Assembly: GCF_000420485.1 (NCBI RefSeq) | Contig: NZ_ATVA01000018.1 | Coordinates: 62,001 to 126,000, forward strand | Direction of reading: 5' to 3' | Origin: Paucidesulfovibrio longus DSM 6739 | Lineage (GTDB): Bacteria; Desulfobacterota; Desulfovibrionia; Desulfovibrionales; Desulfovibrionaceae | DNA: 64,000 nucleotides | In this document: positions 22,385 through 57,397 of the stretch, piece by piece | How positions within the stretch are numbered: position 1 is the first letter of the stretch | Layout of the letters: every line of letters begins with the position of its first letter | Translations under genes and position numbers: made by a program | Notes under the pieces: generated by a model | Told to the model about the DNA's origin: nothing | The model's database searches: none | Seen by the model: only the letters and a program-made list of their open reading frames with translations

Positions 22385-23347
22385 TCAGGGGGCGACAGGG
22401 CCTTTGGCGGAACCCGCGCCCGGAGCGGGCGACGCGGCCTTGGCCTTGGCTGCGTCCACGGAGCAGGAATCCGTTTCCCAGACGTCCGCCACCACGGAGC
22501 GCAGCGCCACCAGCAGAGGATCGTCCGAGCGGGCGTGGGAATGGACGAGATAGGCCCGCAGGGGAATGGACTCGCGGGGCCAGCGGACCATGAGCCCGGC
22601 GGCCTCGGCGGTGCGGGCCTCGTCCTCGCGCACCAGGGAGATGCCCTTGCCCGCGCAGATCAGGTCGTTGACCACGCTCTCGTTGTCCGCCTCGATGGTC
22701 TTGGTCAAGGTCAGCTTGCGGCGTTTGAACATCTCCTCGCCGATCTGGTAGCAGGGGCAGTGCGGCGGGGTCCAGATCCAGGGCAGCCGCGCCAGCTCCT
22801 TCCAGTCCGCGTTCTCGATGCGTTCGCGCCAGGAGGCCGGGCCCATGATCAGCAGTCGGAAGGAACAGAGCGGCAGAAAGGAGAATTCCACGGGATCGAC
22901 TTCGTTGAAGATGAATCCCGCGTCCAGGGTTCCGGCGCGCAGAGCTTCCATGATCCGGCCCGTGACGCTGGTGGAGAGGCTCAGCTCCACCTGGGGATGG
23001 CGCTCTTCCAGGAGGGCGGCCGTGCGGCTGACGCGCAGGAAGATGGAATCGGTGTTCAGGCCGAGGCGCAGGGTGCCGCGCACCTCGCGGCGCAGGCTCC
23101 GCGCCTTGAAGAGCAGGCTCCCGGCGGCGTCCAGGGCCTGGCGCGCGTGCTCCAGCAGCACCCCTCCCTCCGGGGTCAGCTGCATTCCCCTGGGGGTGCG
23201 CCGGAAGAGCGGCAGCCCCAGTTCTTCCTCCAAAGCCTTGACGTGCGCGCTCACGGACGGCTGGCTGATGAACAGCCGCTCAGAGGCGCGGGTCAGGTGC
23301 CCTTCCTCGGCCACGGTCACGAAGGTGCGCAGATGATAGAGTTCCAC
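22385..23347 (-). CDS. LysR-family regulator A of the duplicated LysR/small-membrane-protein locus
   Basis: 320 residues from a GTG at 23347. The winged helix-turn-helix is at 1-60 (HLTRASERLFISQPSVSAHV), and the effector domain spans about 90-295. It is a clear paralogue of the LysR at 24107-25135: both share ELYxLRTFV, LGLNTD, LPWIWT and AGKGxxLxREDE. A short Ala/Gly/Pro-rich tail follows residue 298. It is divergent from a 61-residue membrane protein gene, with a duplicated dyad element in the 148-bp gap. The LPWIWT and CPCY segments replace the usual pattern of known LysR effectors, and the ligand is unknown. Confidence 0.93.
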   Translation of the reverse strand: MELYHLRTFVTVAEEGHLTRASERLFISQPSVSAHVKALEEELGLPLFRRTPRGMQLTPEGGVLLEHARQALDAAGSLLFKARSLRREVRGTLRLGLNTDSIFLRVSRTAALLEERHPQVELSLSTSVTGRIMEALRAGTLDAGFIFNEVDPVEFSFLPLCSFRLLIMGPASWRERIENADWKELARLPWIWTPPHCPCYQIGEEMFKRRKLTLTKTIEADNESVVNDLICAGKGISLVREDEARTAEAAGLMVRWPRESIPLRAYLVHSHARSDDPLLVALRSVVADVWETDSCSVDAAKAKAASPAPGAGSAKGPVAP

Positions 23348-23381
23348 GCACCCTGCATACGATCATTCGGCGTGATGCACA

Positions 23382-23423
23382 ATCGGATAATCCGAACCCC
23401 CGCTTCGGACAATGCGATTGGAT
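23382..23423 (+). promoter_or_regulatory. Copy 1 of a 42-bp dyad element before the first small membrane protein gene
   Basis: 36 of 42 positions match copy 2 at 23728-23769. It contains the palindrome CGGATAATCCG (23384-23394), the dyad TCCGAA/TTCGGA (23391-23396 and 23404-23409) and ends in GATTGGAT (23416-23423). A -10-like TAGAGT follows at 23443-23448. The dyad and its place between LysR and the divergent gene fit a LysR recognition site overlapping the -35 region. Confidence 0.8.
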
Positions 23424-23495
23424 CGTTGGGCGGACGCCGGGCTAGAGTGCGCTTGAAATCGGGGAACCGATGCAACCGCAACCTTGGGGGTCGAG

Positions 23496-23681
23496 ATGAA
23501 TGCGCGGGAATTCAGGGATCTGGGACTGTTCATCGTGGGCGTGGAGGATTCGGACCGTCTGACGCGGCTGCTGCTGCGGGGCTGGAGCCGGGCCGCGCAG
23601 GTGCGCGCGGGCAGGACCAAGGCTGTCTTCTGGGTGGCCATGTCCATTCTCTGCTCCATCGGCATCGGCCAATTGCACTAG
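23496..23681 (+). CDS. Small single-helix membrane protein, paralogue 1
   Basis: 61 residues from the ATG at 23496. An N-terminal soluble part (DLGLFIVGVEDSDR) and basic middle precede a C-terminal membrane helix KAVFWVAMSILCSIGIGQLH. It shares its architecture with the products of 23844-24035 and 25379-25546: a start like LxLV, then Lys-x-x-FW, a Ser-containing helix and a terminal G(L/I)xQL. The basic side before the helix predicts the N-terminus in the cytoplasm. It is divergent from LysR A and follows copy 1 of the dyad element by 72 nt. I recognise no known family. Confidence 0.75.
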   Translation: MNAREFRDLGLFIVGVEDSDRLTRLLLRGWSRAAQVRAGRTKAVFWVAMSILCSIGIGQLH

Positions 23682-23727
23682 CGGGGCAGGGACCGCTCCG
23701 GTCGCGGACCGGGACCGCGCCCGCTCC

Positions 23728-23769
23728 ATCGGATAATCCGAACTCCGTGTTCGGAGATTGCGATTGGAT
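23728..23769 (+). promoter_or_regulatory. Copy 2 of the 42-bp dyad element before the second small membrane protein gene
   Basis: Same layout and length as copy 1. Here the central dyad is perfect: TCCGAAC (23737-23743) and GTTCGGA (23749-23755) around a 5-bp spacer. CGGATAATCCG (23730-23740) and GATTGGAT (23762-23769) are conserved. A -10-like TAGAAT is at 23789-23794, with the same 19-bp distance from TTGGAT as in copy 1. Confidence 0.8.
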
Positions 23770-23843
23770 GCGGCCGCCCCGGCGGCGCTAGAATCCGGAC
23801 GTTGCTTGGAAAAAAATCACGAAGCATTCCAGGAGGAAACTGC

Positions 23844-24035
23844 ATGACTCTGCGCACCGTTCGCAATCTGGGATTGTATCTCGTGCGGCCCGAGGGCGAG
23901 GACCACGCCCGCTGCATCGAGCCGCTGCTCTACGGCTGGGGCGAAGCGGGCCGATTCTGCGCCATGCAGCTCAAGACCGTGTTCTGGCTGGGCATGTCCG
24001 TCTTCGTCTCCGTGGGGCTCAGCCAGCTGCGCTAG
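23844..24035 (+). CDS. Small single-helix membrane protein, paralogue 2
   Basis: 63 residues from the ATG at 23844, preceded by a strong AGGAGG. Sequence begins NLGLYLVRPEGEDHAR, has a middle with GWGEAGRFC and ends in the helix KTVFWLGMSVFVSVGLSQLR. It shares YLVxPEG and FWxGxSVxxxxGLSQL with paralogue 3, and the overall plan with paralogue 1. It lies 162 nt after paralogue 1 with its own copy of the dyad element, so it is separately controlled, and it is convergent with LysR B. No known family recognised. Confidence 0.8.
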   Translation: MTLRTVRNLGLYLVRPEGEDHARCIEPLLYGWGEAGRFCAMQLKTVFWLGMSVFVSVGLSQLR

Positions 24036-24106: not shown

Positions 24107-25135
24107 CTACTCCGTCCGTTTCGCAGGGGCTTTTTTCGCGGTTTTGCGTTTCGCCGCAGCCTGTTCCGCCATTTTTTCAGAATCCGGCGCGATCTCGCGC
24201 ACTTCTCCGGCCTCGTCCGGATTTTCCGCATACATGCCGCGCAGCGGTCCAAGCTGCGCCCCTTCCCACATCTCGGCCACGCAGTGTCGCACGGCGCGGA
24301 TCATGGGATCCTTTTCCCGCGCGAGCAGGTAGATGAAATAGGCCTGGACCTCGTGCGACTCGCCGGGCCAGACCGCCAGCCCGCCCAGGCGCGAAAGCGT
24401 TTCCACCTCGTCCTCGCGCAGCAGGGCCAGCCCCTTGCCCGCGCTCAGCAGCGAACGCACCACGGCCTCGCTGTCCGCCTCGATGATCTGCGCCGGGGTC
24501 AGGTTGTGGCCGTCGAAGATCTTGCGCACCAGCCGATGGTACGGGCAGTTGGCCGTGGTCCAGATCCAGGGCAGGGCGGCCAGGTCGGGCCAGTCCGCGT
24601 TCTGGAGGGCGTCGCGGAACTTTTCGTGCCCGGCCACGTAGAGCCGGAAGGTGAACAGCGGCATGGCCGCCAGTTCGGTGTAGCGCGGCGGGGTGAAGAC
24701 GAAGCCCGCGTCCCAGTTGCCCGCGGCCACCTGCTCGGCGATGCGCGCGGAAGTGGAGTGCAGCAGGGTCACGGCCACGCGCGGGTGCTTTTCCATCATG
24801 CAGGAGAGCAGCGCGTTCAGCCGCAGGAAGTCCACGTCCGTGTTCAGGCCGAGCTTGAAGTTGCCCACCAGCTCGTCGCCCATGGCCCGCGCCAGGAAGA
24901 CCAGCTCCCGCGCCGAGGCCAGGACCGCGTCGGCCTTGGGCTTGAGCGCGTCCCCTTCCCGCGTCAGCTCCATGCCTCTGGCCGTGCGCCGGAAGAGCTT
25001 GACCCCCAGTTCCTTTTCCAGGGCCTTGATGTGGGCGCTGACCGCGGGCTGGCTGACGAAGAGCCGTTCCGAGGCGCGGGTGAGGTGCTTTTCCTCGGCC
25101 ACGGCCACAAAGGTGCGAAGCTGGTAGAGTTCCAT
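24107..25135 (-). CDS. LysR-family regulator B of the duplicated LysR/small-membrane-protein locus
   Basis: 342 residues from the ATG at 25135 (GAGAGGGAC upstream). Helix-turn-helix HLTRASERLFVSQPAVSAHI and effector domain to about residue 298, clearly paralogous with LysR A. The last 45 residues form a hydrophilic extension ending in a Lys/Ala-rich histone-like tail (AAAKRKTAKKAPAKRTE), absent from LysR A. Such tails can add nonspecific DNA contact, but the role here is unknown. It is divergent from the third small membrane protein at 25379. Confidence 0.93.
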   Translation of the reverse strand: MELYQLRTFVAVAEEKHLTRASERLFVSQPAVSAHIKALEKELGVKLFRRTARGMELTREGDALKPKADAVLASARELVFLARAMGDELVGNFKLGLNTDVDFLRLNALLSCMMEKHPRVAVTLLHSTSARIAEQVAAGNWDAGFVFTPPRYTELAAMPLFTFRLYVAGHEKFRDALQNADWPDLAALPWIWTTANCPYHRLVRKIFDGHNLTPAQIIEADSEAVVRSLLSAGKGLALLREDEVETLSRLGGLAVWPGESHEVQAYFIYLLAREKDPMIRAVRHCVAEMWEGAQLGPLRGMYAENPDEAGEVREIAPDSEKMAEQAAAKRKTAKKAPAKRTE

Positions 25136-25291
25136 GTCCCTCTCCTACGTTGTTTCCGGGACGGGTTCAATCGCTGCGGGGCGTTGCCACGGACGATCGG
25201 CGCGCGCGGAGGCCGCTTCGGCGTCCGGCAGCCGGGTTCTGCGCGAAGCGGGGATGATCAGCAAAACTGAAAATGCAATGCGTAAAAAAGT

Positions 25292-25299
25292 GATTGGAT
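25292..25299 (+). promoter_or_regulatory. GATTGGAT motif before the third small membrane protein gene
   Basis: The same octamer that ends both copies of the 42-bp element lies 79 nt before the start codon, close to the 72 and 74 nt seen for the first two genes. The upstream dyad is not conserved here. An 8-mer match alone is weak; the positional agreement is what supports it. Confidence 0.4.
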
Positions 25300-25378: not shown

Positions 25379-25546
25379 ATGGAAATGGTCCGCTATCTTG
25401 TGAGCCCCGAAGGCTCCGGCCTGATCTGGCAGAGTGAGCGGTTCTCCAACCGTTTCTTCCAGTCCCGCGCGGCGGGAACCCTCAAGATCCTCTTCTGGGT
25501 GGGCGTGTCCGTGGCGGTTTTCGCCGGGCTGAGCCAGCTCCAGTAA
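25379..25546 (+). CDS. Small single-helix membrane protein, paralogue 3
   Basis: 55 residues from the ATG at 25379, preceded by CGGAGG. It reads MEMVRYLVSPEGSG, then a middle rich in Ser, Arg and Phe, then the helix KILFWVGVSVAVFAGLSQLQ. Shared residues with paralogue 2 are YLVxPEG, K-x-x-FW, G-x-SV and the terminal GLSQL. It is divergent from LysR B across 243 bp, mirroring the LysR A/paralogue 1 arrangement. It is short enough to be missed by standard gene calling. Confidence 0.78.
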   Translation: MEMVRYLVSPEGSGLIWQSERFSNRFFQSRAAGTLKILFWVGVSVAVFAGLSQLQ

Positions 25547-28365: not shown

Positions 28366-30978
28366 CTATTGCAGTTGGTTCTCGTGGTGCGCGCCGTAGT
28401 CCATCTTCACGGTATGGCAGACGCAGCCGCCGCCCGTGCCCATGGTTCCGGCCTCGCCCTGGAACTGGAGCGGCGGGATGTTGTCGCGGTCCGCGCCGTA
28501 GATGTTGCGCGCGGGGTAGATGGCATGGGGGCTGTTGTGGCAGCCCGCGCAGGCGATCACGCCCATGTCGTCGTGGCGGTTGCGGTAGAGCATGTCGCCG
28601 CCCTCGGTCCACTTGTTGAACGCGTCCAGGCCCGGATCGGTGAAGTTCACGTGGCAGTTCAGGCAGTCCGGCTCGTTCAGCCACGGGATGCGCGGCTTGA
28701 TGTCGTCCGCGACCTCGTAGTTGCGGGGCTTGATCTGGCTGAGCAGCAGGTCGCGGCCCTTCTTGCCGTCCTGCGCGCGCAGCAGGGAGATGGCGTGATC
28801 CTCCATGGTTCCGTGGCAGTCCGTGCAGGTGGCGAAGTCCGCGTGGCGACCGCGCAGGCAGCGGGTCGGGCCGTCCTCGCGGTTCGGGTGGCAATAGGTG
28901 CAGGCCTCGGCTCCCCTGTCGGTCAGGTATTGCGCGTGCAGCCCGTGCAGGGCCGCGGGCAGGTTCAGCAGTTCGGGATTGCCCTTGGCACCGAGCACCG
29001 GGTCGGGGTGGCAGCTCTGGCAGAGCACGGGCTTTCCGGCCTTGGCCCGTTCCACGAGGTCGGTTCCGTTCATGCGGTCGTGCACGCTGATGACGTCGCG
29101 TCCGGTCGCGTCGGAGATGCCCGCGAGGCCGCCCACCTTCCAGGGGCCGCCGTGGCAGTTCTTGCAGCCCATTTCCGTGGAGGTCGGGGCCACGACGCGC
29201 GTCTCGGCCAGGAGCTTGCCCGAGGCGTCGTGGGCCTGGATGGTGAAGAGCGGGTAGGGATTGTAATCCATGTCGTCCGGATAGGGCACCACGGGAATCA
29301 GCTTGGCCTCGAACCAACCCGCCTCCTGTTCCAGCTTCATGTCGCCGTTCATGCCGTTGCCCGCGAGGCCCACGTTCTTTTCCAGGGGCGCGGGCAGGCC
29401 GAAGATGGCCTGGGCGTAGTCCCAGAACTCGGAGTGGGCCGAGGGGTTGGCGAATTCCGGCTGGGCGGCGTAGCTCAGGGTCACGCCCTCGGTGACCAGG
29501 GTCGGCGGATCGCCGCGCTTCACGAGCTGGGCGAAGATGTCGTTGGCCGGGGGCAGCAGCACCCAGTTGCGGTCCGAGTCGGAAATGCAGTGCATGCCCA
29601 GGTTGTTCCAGGCCAGGAGCACGTATTCGTCGTTCTTTTCCGGGATGTCCAGGGGCAGGTCCACTTCCTCGAAGACCTTGTTTTCCTCGCCCGTTCTTCC
29701 GTGCAGCCCTTCCACGATGTACGCGGCCAGGGCCTTGCGTTCGTCCAGGGTGCCCATGAAGGGCGGCATGTAGCGGTTGACCTTGCCCAGGCCGTCCAGC
29801 ATGGCGTCCATGCCCGTGAGCGAGAATTTCGCCGTGCGCGGCAGAATGTCGTTCATGGGCCCGGCGATGGAATGGCAGCTGGCGCATTCCAGCTGGAAGA
29901 GGAATTCGCCCGCCGTCACGGGATCGGCCACGGGGTCGAGTCCTTCCGGAGCCCACTTGGCCCTGGCGATGGCTCCTGTATCGTTGATGCTCTCGACCTC
30001 CGTCCGGAGGATGGAGTTGGAGTAGATCTCGTTCCAGATCAGGTAGGGCTTGCGTCCGGCCTCGCGGATGAATTCGAAGGAACCCGCGAGCCCCAGGCCC
30101 AGGGCCAGGATGACGAAGGCGACCGGGAAGGACACGGAACGGGGCATGCGCACGGCCATGACCAGGCCGCTGAGGACCACCAGGGGCGAGAAGACCCAGA
30201 AATAGCGGAAGAACACGGACACCCGGTGCGACTTGGCCACGATCAGGGCGTGCTGCGGGTCGGGCATGGCCGCGACGTACCACCAGCCGGAAAGCAGGAA
30301 GAGCGCGAAGGGGGCCAGGGTCCAGAGCGCGCAGATGCGCACCATGCGCGTGCGCGCGGCCTCGTCCTTGATGCGGGTGGCCGTGAGGAAGCCGAAGAGG
30401 CCCGCGATCATGAAGGCCAGGAAGCTGCGGAAGAAGAGCGACGGCCAGAACGAGGGGTTGAAGAAGCCGTCCCAGAAGCTTTCGGTCTGGGTCCAGTCTC
30501 CCGGAGTGAGCATGTAGCCGATGATGCCGTTGACCAGGAAGAGCGAGAGCCAGGCAAAGGCGAAGTAGAGCCAGCCCACGGCCATGTGCTGGCTCCGGTT
30601 GAGCCGCTTCCAGCCGTAGAAATAGACGAGCAGGGCCACGATCTCGCCCAGGAAGCAGACCCACTCCGAGGCCCAGCCGAAGACGAAATGGTGGATCAGG
30701 GTGATGGTCGCCTGGGGCGAGAGCAGGGCGATGGTGAACCAGATGCCCACGCCCGTGACCCCGCCGAAGACCATGGTCAGCAGGAGGAAGAATTTGGAGT
30801 GCTTCTTGACGTATTCAAGGATGTCCGGGGAGTCGTGACGATAGGCGTAGCGCTCCGTGAGCACCAGGAAGAGGCCGCCGCCCACGGCGAACTGGGCCAC
30901 GTAGACGTGCACCGTGGCGATGAGCGCGATCCAGAAGCCCCCGCCCAGGGTCGTCAGTTGCCAGATGGGATATTCCAT
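28366..30978 (-). CDS. CydA-like membrane protein fused to multihaem cytochrome c
   Basis: 870 residues. Residues 1-310 are a cytochrome bd subunit I-like membrane domain of about eight to nine helices, with candidate haem ligands His24 and His96/97 and the CydA-like segments GVGIWFTI and NGIIGYMLTPGDW. A monohaem cytochrome c domain follows (CASCH at 365, Met in YMPPFMG). After a haem-free stretch (440-600) come six more CXXCH motifs at about 605, 653, 693, 718, 772 and 810, and a contracted CVCH at 852. The large C-terminal part should lie in the periplasm. Overlaps the upstream membrane-protein gene by one base. Substrate and electron direction are not known. Confidence 0.9.
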   Translation of the reverse strand: MEYPIWQLTTLGGGFWIALIATVHVYVAQFAVGGGLFLVLTERYAYRHDSPDILEYVKKHSKFFLLLTMVFGGVTGVGIWFTIALLSPQATITLIHHFVFGWASEWVCFLGEIVALLVYFYGWKRLNRSQHMAVGWLYFAFAWLSLFLVNGIIGYMLTPGDWTQTESFWDGFFNPSFWPSLFFRSFLAFMIAGLFGFLTATRIKDEAARTRMVRICALWTLAPFALFLLSGWWYVAAMPDPQHALIVAKSHRVSVFFRYFWVFSPLVVLSGLVMAVRMPRSVSFPVAFVILALGLGLAGSFEFIREAGRKPYLIWNEIYSNSILRTEVESINDTGAIARAKWAPEGLDPVADPVTAGEFLFQLECASCHSIAGPMNDILPRTAKFSLTGMDAMLDGLGKVNRYMPPFMGTLDERKALAAYIVEGLHGRTGEENKVFEEVDLPLDIPEKNDEYVLLAWNNLGMHCISDSDRNWVLLPPANDIFAQLVKRGDPPTLVTEGVTLSYAAQPEFANPSAHSEFWDYAQAIFGLPAPLEKNVGLAGNGMNGDMKLEQEAGWFEAKLIPVVPYPDDMDYNPYPLFTIQAHDASGKLLAETRVVAPTSTEMGCKNCHGGPWKVGGLAGISDATGRDVISVHDRMNGTDLVERAKAGKPVLCQSCHPDPVLGAKGNPELLNLPAALHGLHAQYLTDRGAEACTYCHPNREDGPTRCLRGRHADFATCTDCHGTMEDHAISLLRAQDGKKGRDLLLSQIKPRNYEVADDIKPRIPWLNEPDCLNCHVNFTDPGLDAFNKWTEGGDMLYRNRHDDMGVIACAGCHNSPHAIYPARNIYGADRDNIPPLQFQGEAGTMGTGGGCVCHTVKMDYGAHHENQLQ

Positions 30979-55612: not shown

Positions 55613-57386
<1,774 letters not shown>

Positions 57387-57397
<11 letters not shown>

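Follow-up and report, generated by a model that had tools for sequence, protein, structure and literature searches.

A putative LysR-type operator-promoter duplicated together with its small gene in Paucidesulfovibrio longus

Within a 64,000-nt stretch of the Paucidesulfovibrio longus DSM 6739 genome (contig NZ_ATVA01000018.1, positions 62,001 to 126,000 of the forward strand), hereafter called the window, two copies of a 42-bp element stand in front of two small genes that lie close to the genes for two LysR-type regulators. This arrangement raises the question of what the element is and why it occurs twice. Our answer, to which we assign a probability of roughly 0.8, is that each copy represents a LysR-type operator-promoter that was duplicated with its small gene, and that LysR A is the putative regulator. 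Here we establish the architecture of the element, its conservation, its specificity, its co-inheritance and the recurrence of its duplication.

The 42-bp repeat and its surroundings

LysR A, a 320-aa protein and probably the regulator of both copies, is encoded from a GTG start on the minus strand (22385-23347), divergently from small gene 1 (23496-23681, plus strand), which encodes a 61-aa PED-family peptide. Small gene 2 (23844-24035, plus strand; 63-aa PED-family peptide) follows in tandem with its own copy of the element in front. The gene for LysR B (24107-25135, minus strand; 342 aa) runs towards small gene 2 and away from small gene 3 (25379-25546, plus strand; 55-aa PED-family peptide), and the LysR B protein shares 49% identity with LysR A across 291 residues. 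Both regulators exceeded the cut-offs for the HTH_1 and LysR_substrate domains (26.6 and 28 bits), with 90.5 and 104.6 bits for LysR A and 86.9 and 106.5 bits for LysR B. Further along the window, a minus-strand ORF of 870 aa (28366-30978) combines an N-terminus like that of cytochrome bd subunit I (PF01654) with several CxxCH haem motifs, which is an unusual fusion.

A gapless comparison of copy 1 (23382-23423, plus strand) with copy 2 (23728-23769, plus strand) returned the 36 identical positions out of 42 that had been claimed in the original prediction. The claimed 19-bp spacing was likewise borne out in both copies: on the plus strand, TTGGAT at 23418-23423 precedes a -10-like TAGAGT (23443-23448) for small gene 1, and TTGGAT at 23764-23769 precedes a -10-like TAGAAT (23789-23794) for small gene 2. 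Counting confirmed the distances of 72 and 74 nt between the elements and the ATG codons at 23496 and 23844. Random sequence had been proposed as a control, and it upheld the repeat: at distances of 100-999 nt, the best gapless 42-nt match was 27-29 in ten Markov-1 resamples of the window and 36 in the window itself. A second pair with 36 of 42 matches (56304, distance 258) was discarded as a coding repeat of an rpsA-like ORF (55613-57397), whose repeats account for direct repeats every 255-261 nt at 56240-57125 and are ordinary.

In the decamers that flank the element, identity between the copies drops to 2-4 of 10 positions. Copy 1 is an interrupted dyad over its full length, with 17-nt arms, of which 14 of 17 positions are complementary, and a spacer of 7; dyads of this type number three in the window and none or one in each of 20 resamples. 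Copy 2 has a weaker left arm, with CCATC where copy 1 has CAATC, and has no divergent LysR gene. On the minus strand, a possible LysR A promoter (TTGTGC-N17-TATGCA, 23354-23382), picked out by eye, overlaps the left end of copy 1, which is separated from the LysR A start by 34 nt.

A two-box core conserved beside LysR relatives

Relatives of LysR B at E ≤1e-45 were found in 109 of the 247 genomes of the family. Using a subset of LysR matches chosen for spread over genera (105 regions from 15 genera, including that of the window), we compared the 400 nt preceding each of 140 LysR starts, among them those of both window LysRs. The TCCGAA/TTCGGA dyad of the original prediction does not define the element more widely: a literal CCGAA-N5-9-TTCGG with one mismatch allowed was found in just 17 of the 140 upstream regions. 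The dyad letters were therefore abandoned as a definition, and a position matrix was built. A site scoring above the threshold of 8 occurred upstream of 116 of 140 LysR genes, and 420 shuffled regions gave a best score of 8.5 and a 99th percentile of 0.4. Second LysR genes, which start 881-994 nt behind another LysR start on the same strand, made up 14 of the 24 misses. The other ten, with no preceding LysR gene, comprised three LysR B genes from the window's genus, all five genes of genus g10, one of g27, where the upstream sequence runs into N, and one of g32. With leave-one-genus-out training, 111 of 140 regions in 12 of 15 genera still passed and none did in g10, g27 and g32, although this control is not fully independent because the site positions were chosen using all genera. 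In g10 (L165-L169), a right-box sequence resembling TTCAGGCATTGCGATTGG is kept upstream of the LysR relatives, which have neither a complete operator nor a recognised small gene.

The element also extends to another family of the order, in which three loci scored 29.2 where the operator would be expected, against at most -5.5 for the other best values shown; the three operators are identical and thus count as one datum. PED genes adjoin LysR relatives in five genomes of this second family. A scan of named genomes returned one close relative, L080 (82%), and the next reached 44%. The only neighbors recurring in at least three genera were LysR genes, antisense ORFs, and purD-like and aminotransferase genes (three genera), so synteny points to no partner gene.

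Among 110 distinct operators, the most constant columns besides the -35 were T7 (105 operators), A19 (105), T29 (109) and A41 (103), and all four letters were present together in 97. They form two T-N11-A boxes that are 22 bp apart and mirror images about one axis, the right one continuing into the TTGGA of the -35. In copy 1 these are a left box ATC-N9-GAA (23382-23396, with T23383 and A23395) and a right box TTC-N9-GAT (23404-23418, with T23405 and A23417); in copy 2 (matrix score 38.6), the corresponding boxes lie 346 nt further at 23728-23742 (T23729 and A23741) and 23750-23764 (T23751 and A23763). An anchor filter applied before the dyad and -10 counts retained 108 of the 110 operators, and a TA followed the -35 at a spacer of 18 in 45 of these and of 19 in 52, together 97 of 108, with each remaining spacer within 12-25 accounting for 0-10 operators. 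The T-N11-A motif and the scheme of a recognition site and an activation site are presented for LysR-type regulators in PMC11739112, and the present element has T-N11-A boxes near a promoter, a second box at the -35, and a spacing of whole helical turns (22 bp). Judged from these alignments, the conserved core is the pair of T-N11-A boxes and not the CGGATAATCCG palindrome, which had been noted correctly in the window copies but is read as CAAGAAATCCG in both sister genomes.

In front of small gene 3, we found a variant of this architecture (25257-25299, plus strand; matrix score -8.8). Its left box ATC-N9-GAA (25257-25271, with T25258 and A25270) and a -35 TTGGAT (25294-25299) are present, while the right half is extended by 1 nt and lacks a T-N11-A, so that the pair of boxes 22 bp apart is absent; both the left box and the longer right half are also found in the two sister genomes. 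The earlier suggestion that small gene 3 answers to a different site agrees with this variant, but the description of that site as having only GATTGGAT overlooked the left box. Because the left box is kept and the right half is altered, LysR B appears to use a variant operator.

These comparisons bear on an alternative that we consider unlikely, namely that LysR B, alone or together with LysR A, acts on copy 2 and that small gene 2 answers a signal other than that of small gene 1. Small gene 2 sits between the two LysR genes, and the helix-turn-helix regions of LysR A and LysR B, including the recognition helix, differ very little, which means that the assignment of either LysR to either copy is not readable from sequence. 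However, copy 2 resembles copy 1 and the sites at LysR A in two sister genomes in having both T-N11-A boxes and A-type letters, whereas the operator of LysR B itself lacks a right box, in the window as well as in both sister genomes, which argues against this alternative.

The inner letters of the dyad vary in a partly coordinated manner. In eight genera (g1, g24, g25, g28, g29, g53, g55 and g56; 30 operators), changes at inner pairs are compensated: Watson-Crick pairing is seen at 17/31 in 24 operators, at 15/33 in 18 and at 21/27 in 23, against at most 17, 16 and 21 in 300 shuffles. Within g25 alone there are three variants, CCGAA/TTCGG, CGGAA/TTCCG and CTGAA/TTCAG. Over all 108 operators, solely pair 15/33 beat every shuffle (46 vs 42), pair 17/31 reaching 62 against a shuffle maximum of 64, and in g5 alone no inner pair exceeded the shuffles. 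The inverted repeat of copy 1 might be taken for a terminator, attenuator or leader hairpin that works as RNA rather than as a protein site. We regard this as very improbable, since the element precedes the -35 and extends into it, with 19 nt between it and the -10, and should be outside the small gene transcript, and since the constant letters are those of T-N11-A rather than of a stem.

The duplication extends to the genes behind the element. Small proteins 1 and 2 are identical at 26 of 63 aligned positions and score 117 against each other. Two sister genomes each have one LysR A-linked orthologue, against which the scores are only 66-77, so the operator-gene copy most likely arose in the window's lineage. 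The window and five g5 loci (L120, L125, L138, L141 and L149) have a second operator with a second PED gene behind it, making the tandem layout a feature of 6 of the 116 operator-bearing loci. Two further second operator matches, 1.4 kb away, were set aside as operators of neighboring LysR genes. That the copies are products of chance or passive remnants of gene duplication with no regulatory role would suit the paralogy of small genes 1 and 2 and the restriction of the element to two copies in this genome, but is hardly credible given that resamples stay below the observed 36 of 42, that the element is still alike though its flanks and the proteins have diverged, and that the tandem layout is repeated at the five other loci. 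The idea of a LysR-recognised promoter copied with its gene is therefore supported comparatively, by the held-out recovery of the operator in most genera, its two boxes, the protein scores, and the confinement of the operator to this locus in the window's genome, described below.

Genome-wide specificity, possible distal targets and the small peptides

A genome model of the operator, built from 41 of 67 operators, was run on 23 genomes. In the window's genome it detected both copies, with E values of 1.8e-9 and 3.3e-8, and, owing to dyad symmetry, matched both again on the opposite strand (E 0.009 and 0.19); matches elsewhere had E values of 0.19 and 0.73, leaving just the two copies below E 0.1. 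In ten relatives, 22 matches at E ≤0.1 corresponded to 20 places, of which 19 are LysR/small-gene loci. The genome-wide search proposed in the original prediction thus revealed further copies at such loci in the relatives, and in the genome itself the two copies only. A pattern match with three mismatches at C13:59206 was rejected, as it overlaps a transporter-like ORF, has no LysR gene in its 3-kb locus and has a matrix score of 0.2.

In g29, a LysR-linked operator was present in 12 of 12 genomes, and nine of these (L267-L275) have a distal operator 71-95 nt before a methyltransferase ORF. The encoded proteins are 54-100% identical to that of L268, for which the methyltransferase assignment was made with Pfam on the first 230 aa; a C-terminal stretch of this 388-aa protein is 59% identical to a C_GCAxxG_C_C protein of genome G145. 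By sequence, a methyltransferase/C_GCAxxG_C_C fusion gene is the predicted second target of the operator in this genus. The C_GCAxxG_C_C protein of G145 (PF09719) is itself preceded by an operator with all four T/A letters (G145:C1:637907-637951, L254, minus strand), which is a possible distal target, there being no LysR gene within the 2.9-kb stretch. The distal site L278 also precedes a C_GCAxxG_C_C protein, and L277 has no target in the right orientation; distal matches in G157:C104, G085:C5 and G184:C184 were left out of this reading of targets. Loci resembling those for C_GCAxxG_C_C proteins had no operator at L284, the best in the window's genome, or at L281 and L282 from other genera, which counts against a general regulon.

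Eight further g29 regions carry a LysE-family gene (PF01810), and in seven of them (L188, L191, L195, L197, L199, L201 and L205) a PED gene lies 15-39 nt behind it; no operator was found for these PED genes. A tblastn search for a LysE-family gene returned none in the window, nor in the remaining fetched regions to which it was applied. The methyltransferase/C_GCAxxG_C_C and LysE contexts suggest an exporter-accessory or redox role of the peptides.

The three small proteins of the window are mutually related members of a family marked by a PED motif, and neither they nor eight small proteins from relatives gave a Pfam or NCBIfam match above cut-off. At the 119 loci that remained after 21 of the 140 LysR regions scoring below -9.5 were removed, we counted 65 PED, 31 DTRL and 10 Cys-rich small proteins and 13 loci assigned to no type; two labels were corrected by hand before the type and tree counts. 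The types track the LysR tree, with 18 changes vs 67.5 for shuffled labels, a figure that is inflated by close relatives. Behind the operators of L176-L181 and L207-L209 (g25 and g53), proteins of about 100 aa that have a hydrophobic stretch at the N-terminus and CxxC...CxxxC-like motifs at the C-terminus replace the PED peptide. Glu17, Lys44 and Trp48 are invariant among 32 aligned PED proteins, and dN was lower than dS in all 14 pairs computed, two of 16 having been skipped for unequal length. A regular expression for the C-terminal part of the peptide picked out no more than the window proteins and one relative. AlphaFold predicted helices at residues 3-14, 21-28 and 34-61 of small protein 2 (mean pLDDT 86), which together with the hydrophobic C-terminus suggests that PED peptides are probably tail-anchored in the membrane. 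They may tentatively be viewed as small accessory peptides of an exporter or redox system that answers a thiol, a metalloid or another reactive compound.

A proposed mechanism and its place among LysR systems

Our preferred reading, in which LysR A acts on both copies, leads to the following model. A LysR A tetramer would hold the two T-N11-A boxes, 22 bp or about two helical turns apart, with its right box overlapping the -35 of the small gene and its left box anchoring the regulator, as in the usual LysR scheme. A ligand would shift the second dimer on the right box and allow polymerase to start at the small gene, and the complex on copy 1, only 34 nt from the LysR A start, would probably repress LysR A. 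Copy 2 would bring a second, diverged membrane peptide under LysR A, because the operator and the small gene were duplicated as a unit. We infer binding of LysR A to both copies, activation and autorepression.

At its widest, the model would describe a LysR module for small membrane peptides in Desulfovibrionales, in which one regulator lineage and one two-box operator control exchangeable, unrelated targets (PED, DTRL and Cys-rich), operator and gene are duplicated as a unit, the regulon in some genera extends to methyltransferase/C_GCAxxG_C_C genes, and the peptides assist exporters as accessory subunits when the cell responds to thiols, metalloids or electrophiles; taken as a whole, this picture is speculative and rather doubtful. 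The regulator-peptide module is conserved in 12 of the 15 genera examined and in a second bacterial family, and the specificity of its operator allows whole genomes to be probed for the regulon; in one genus it has already pointed to a second target. The operator also gives a way of approaching small membrane proteins whose sequences do not reveal their affiliation, and the related LysRs with their operators form a natural series for studying LysR specificity. Among open-licence PMC full texts on LysR, small membrane proteins, Desulfovibrio and C_GCAxxG_C_C, we found no account of a LysR/small-peptide module.

Position 197 of LysR A corresponds to the place of Cys199 in E. coli OxyR. In an alignment with an OxyR sequence, LysR A, LysR B and 98 of 140 relatives have a Cys at this place, which is a possible sensing residue, and LysR A, LysR B and 109 of 140 relatives have Phe at the place of Cys208. 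An OxyR-type thiol sensor with a Cys199/Cys208 pair was rejected, since the second position is Phe and not Cys. BenM/CatM and OxyR-type LysRs are the nearest solved structures by sequence, consistent with a LysR fold, but no catabolic or peroxide genes lie behind the present operator. Membership in the selenium-metabolism LysRs (LysR_Se/HrsM, named in PMC9312934) was also rejected: NF040786 was the best NCBIfam match of both LysRs, at 119.3 and 122.5 bits, far under its 250-bit cut-off. The seven g29 regions in which a PED gene follows a LysE-family gene (PF01810) liken the peptides to partners of LysE-family exporters, but those PED genes are without the operator, and tblastn placed no LysE-family gene in the window. 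In architecture, the present system resembles the general scheme of a divergent, autoregulated LysR-type regulator with a recognition site and an activation site (PMC11739112): regulator and target diverge, and two T-N11-A boxes are spaced by about two turns, with the proximal box at the -35. It differs from that scheme in that the target is a lone gene for a small membrane peptide, that the operator has been copied jointly with its target, and that unrelated peptide types share one operator.
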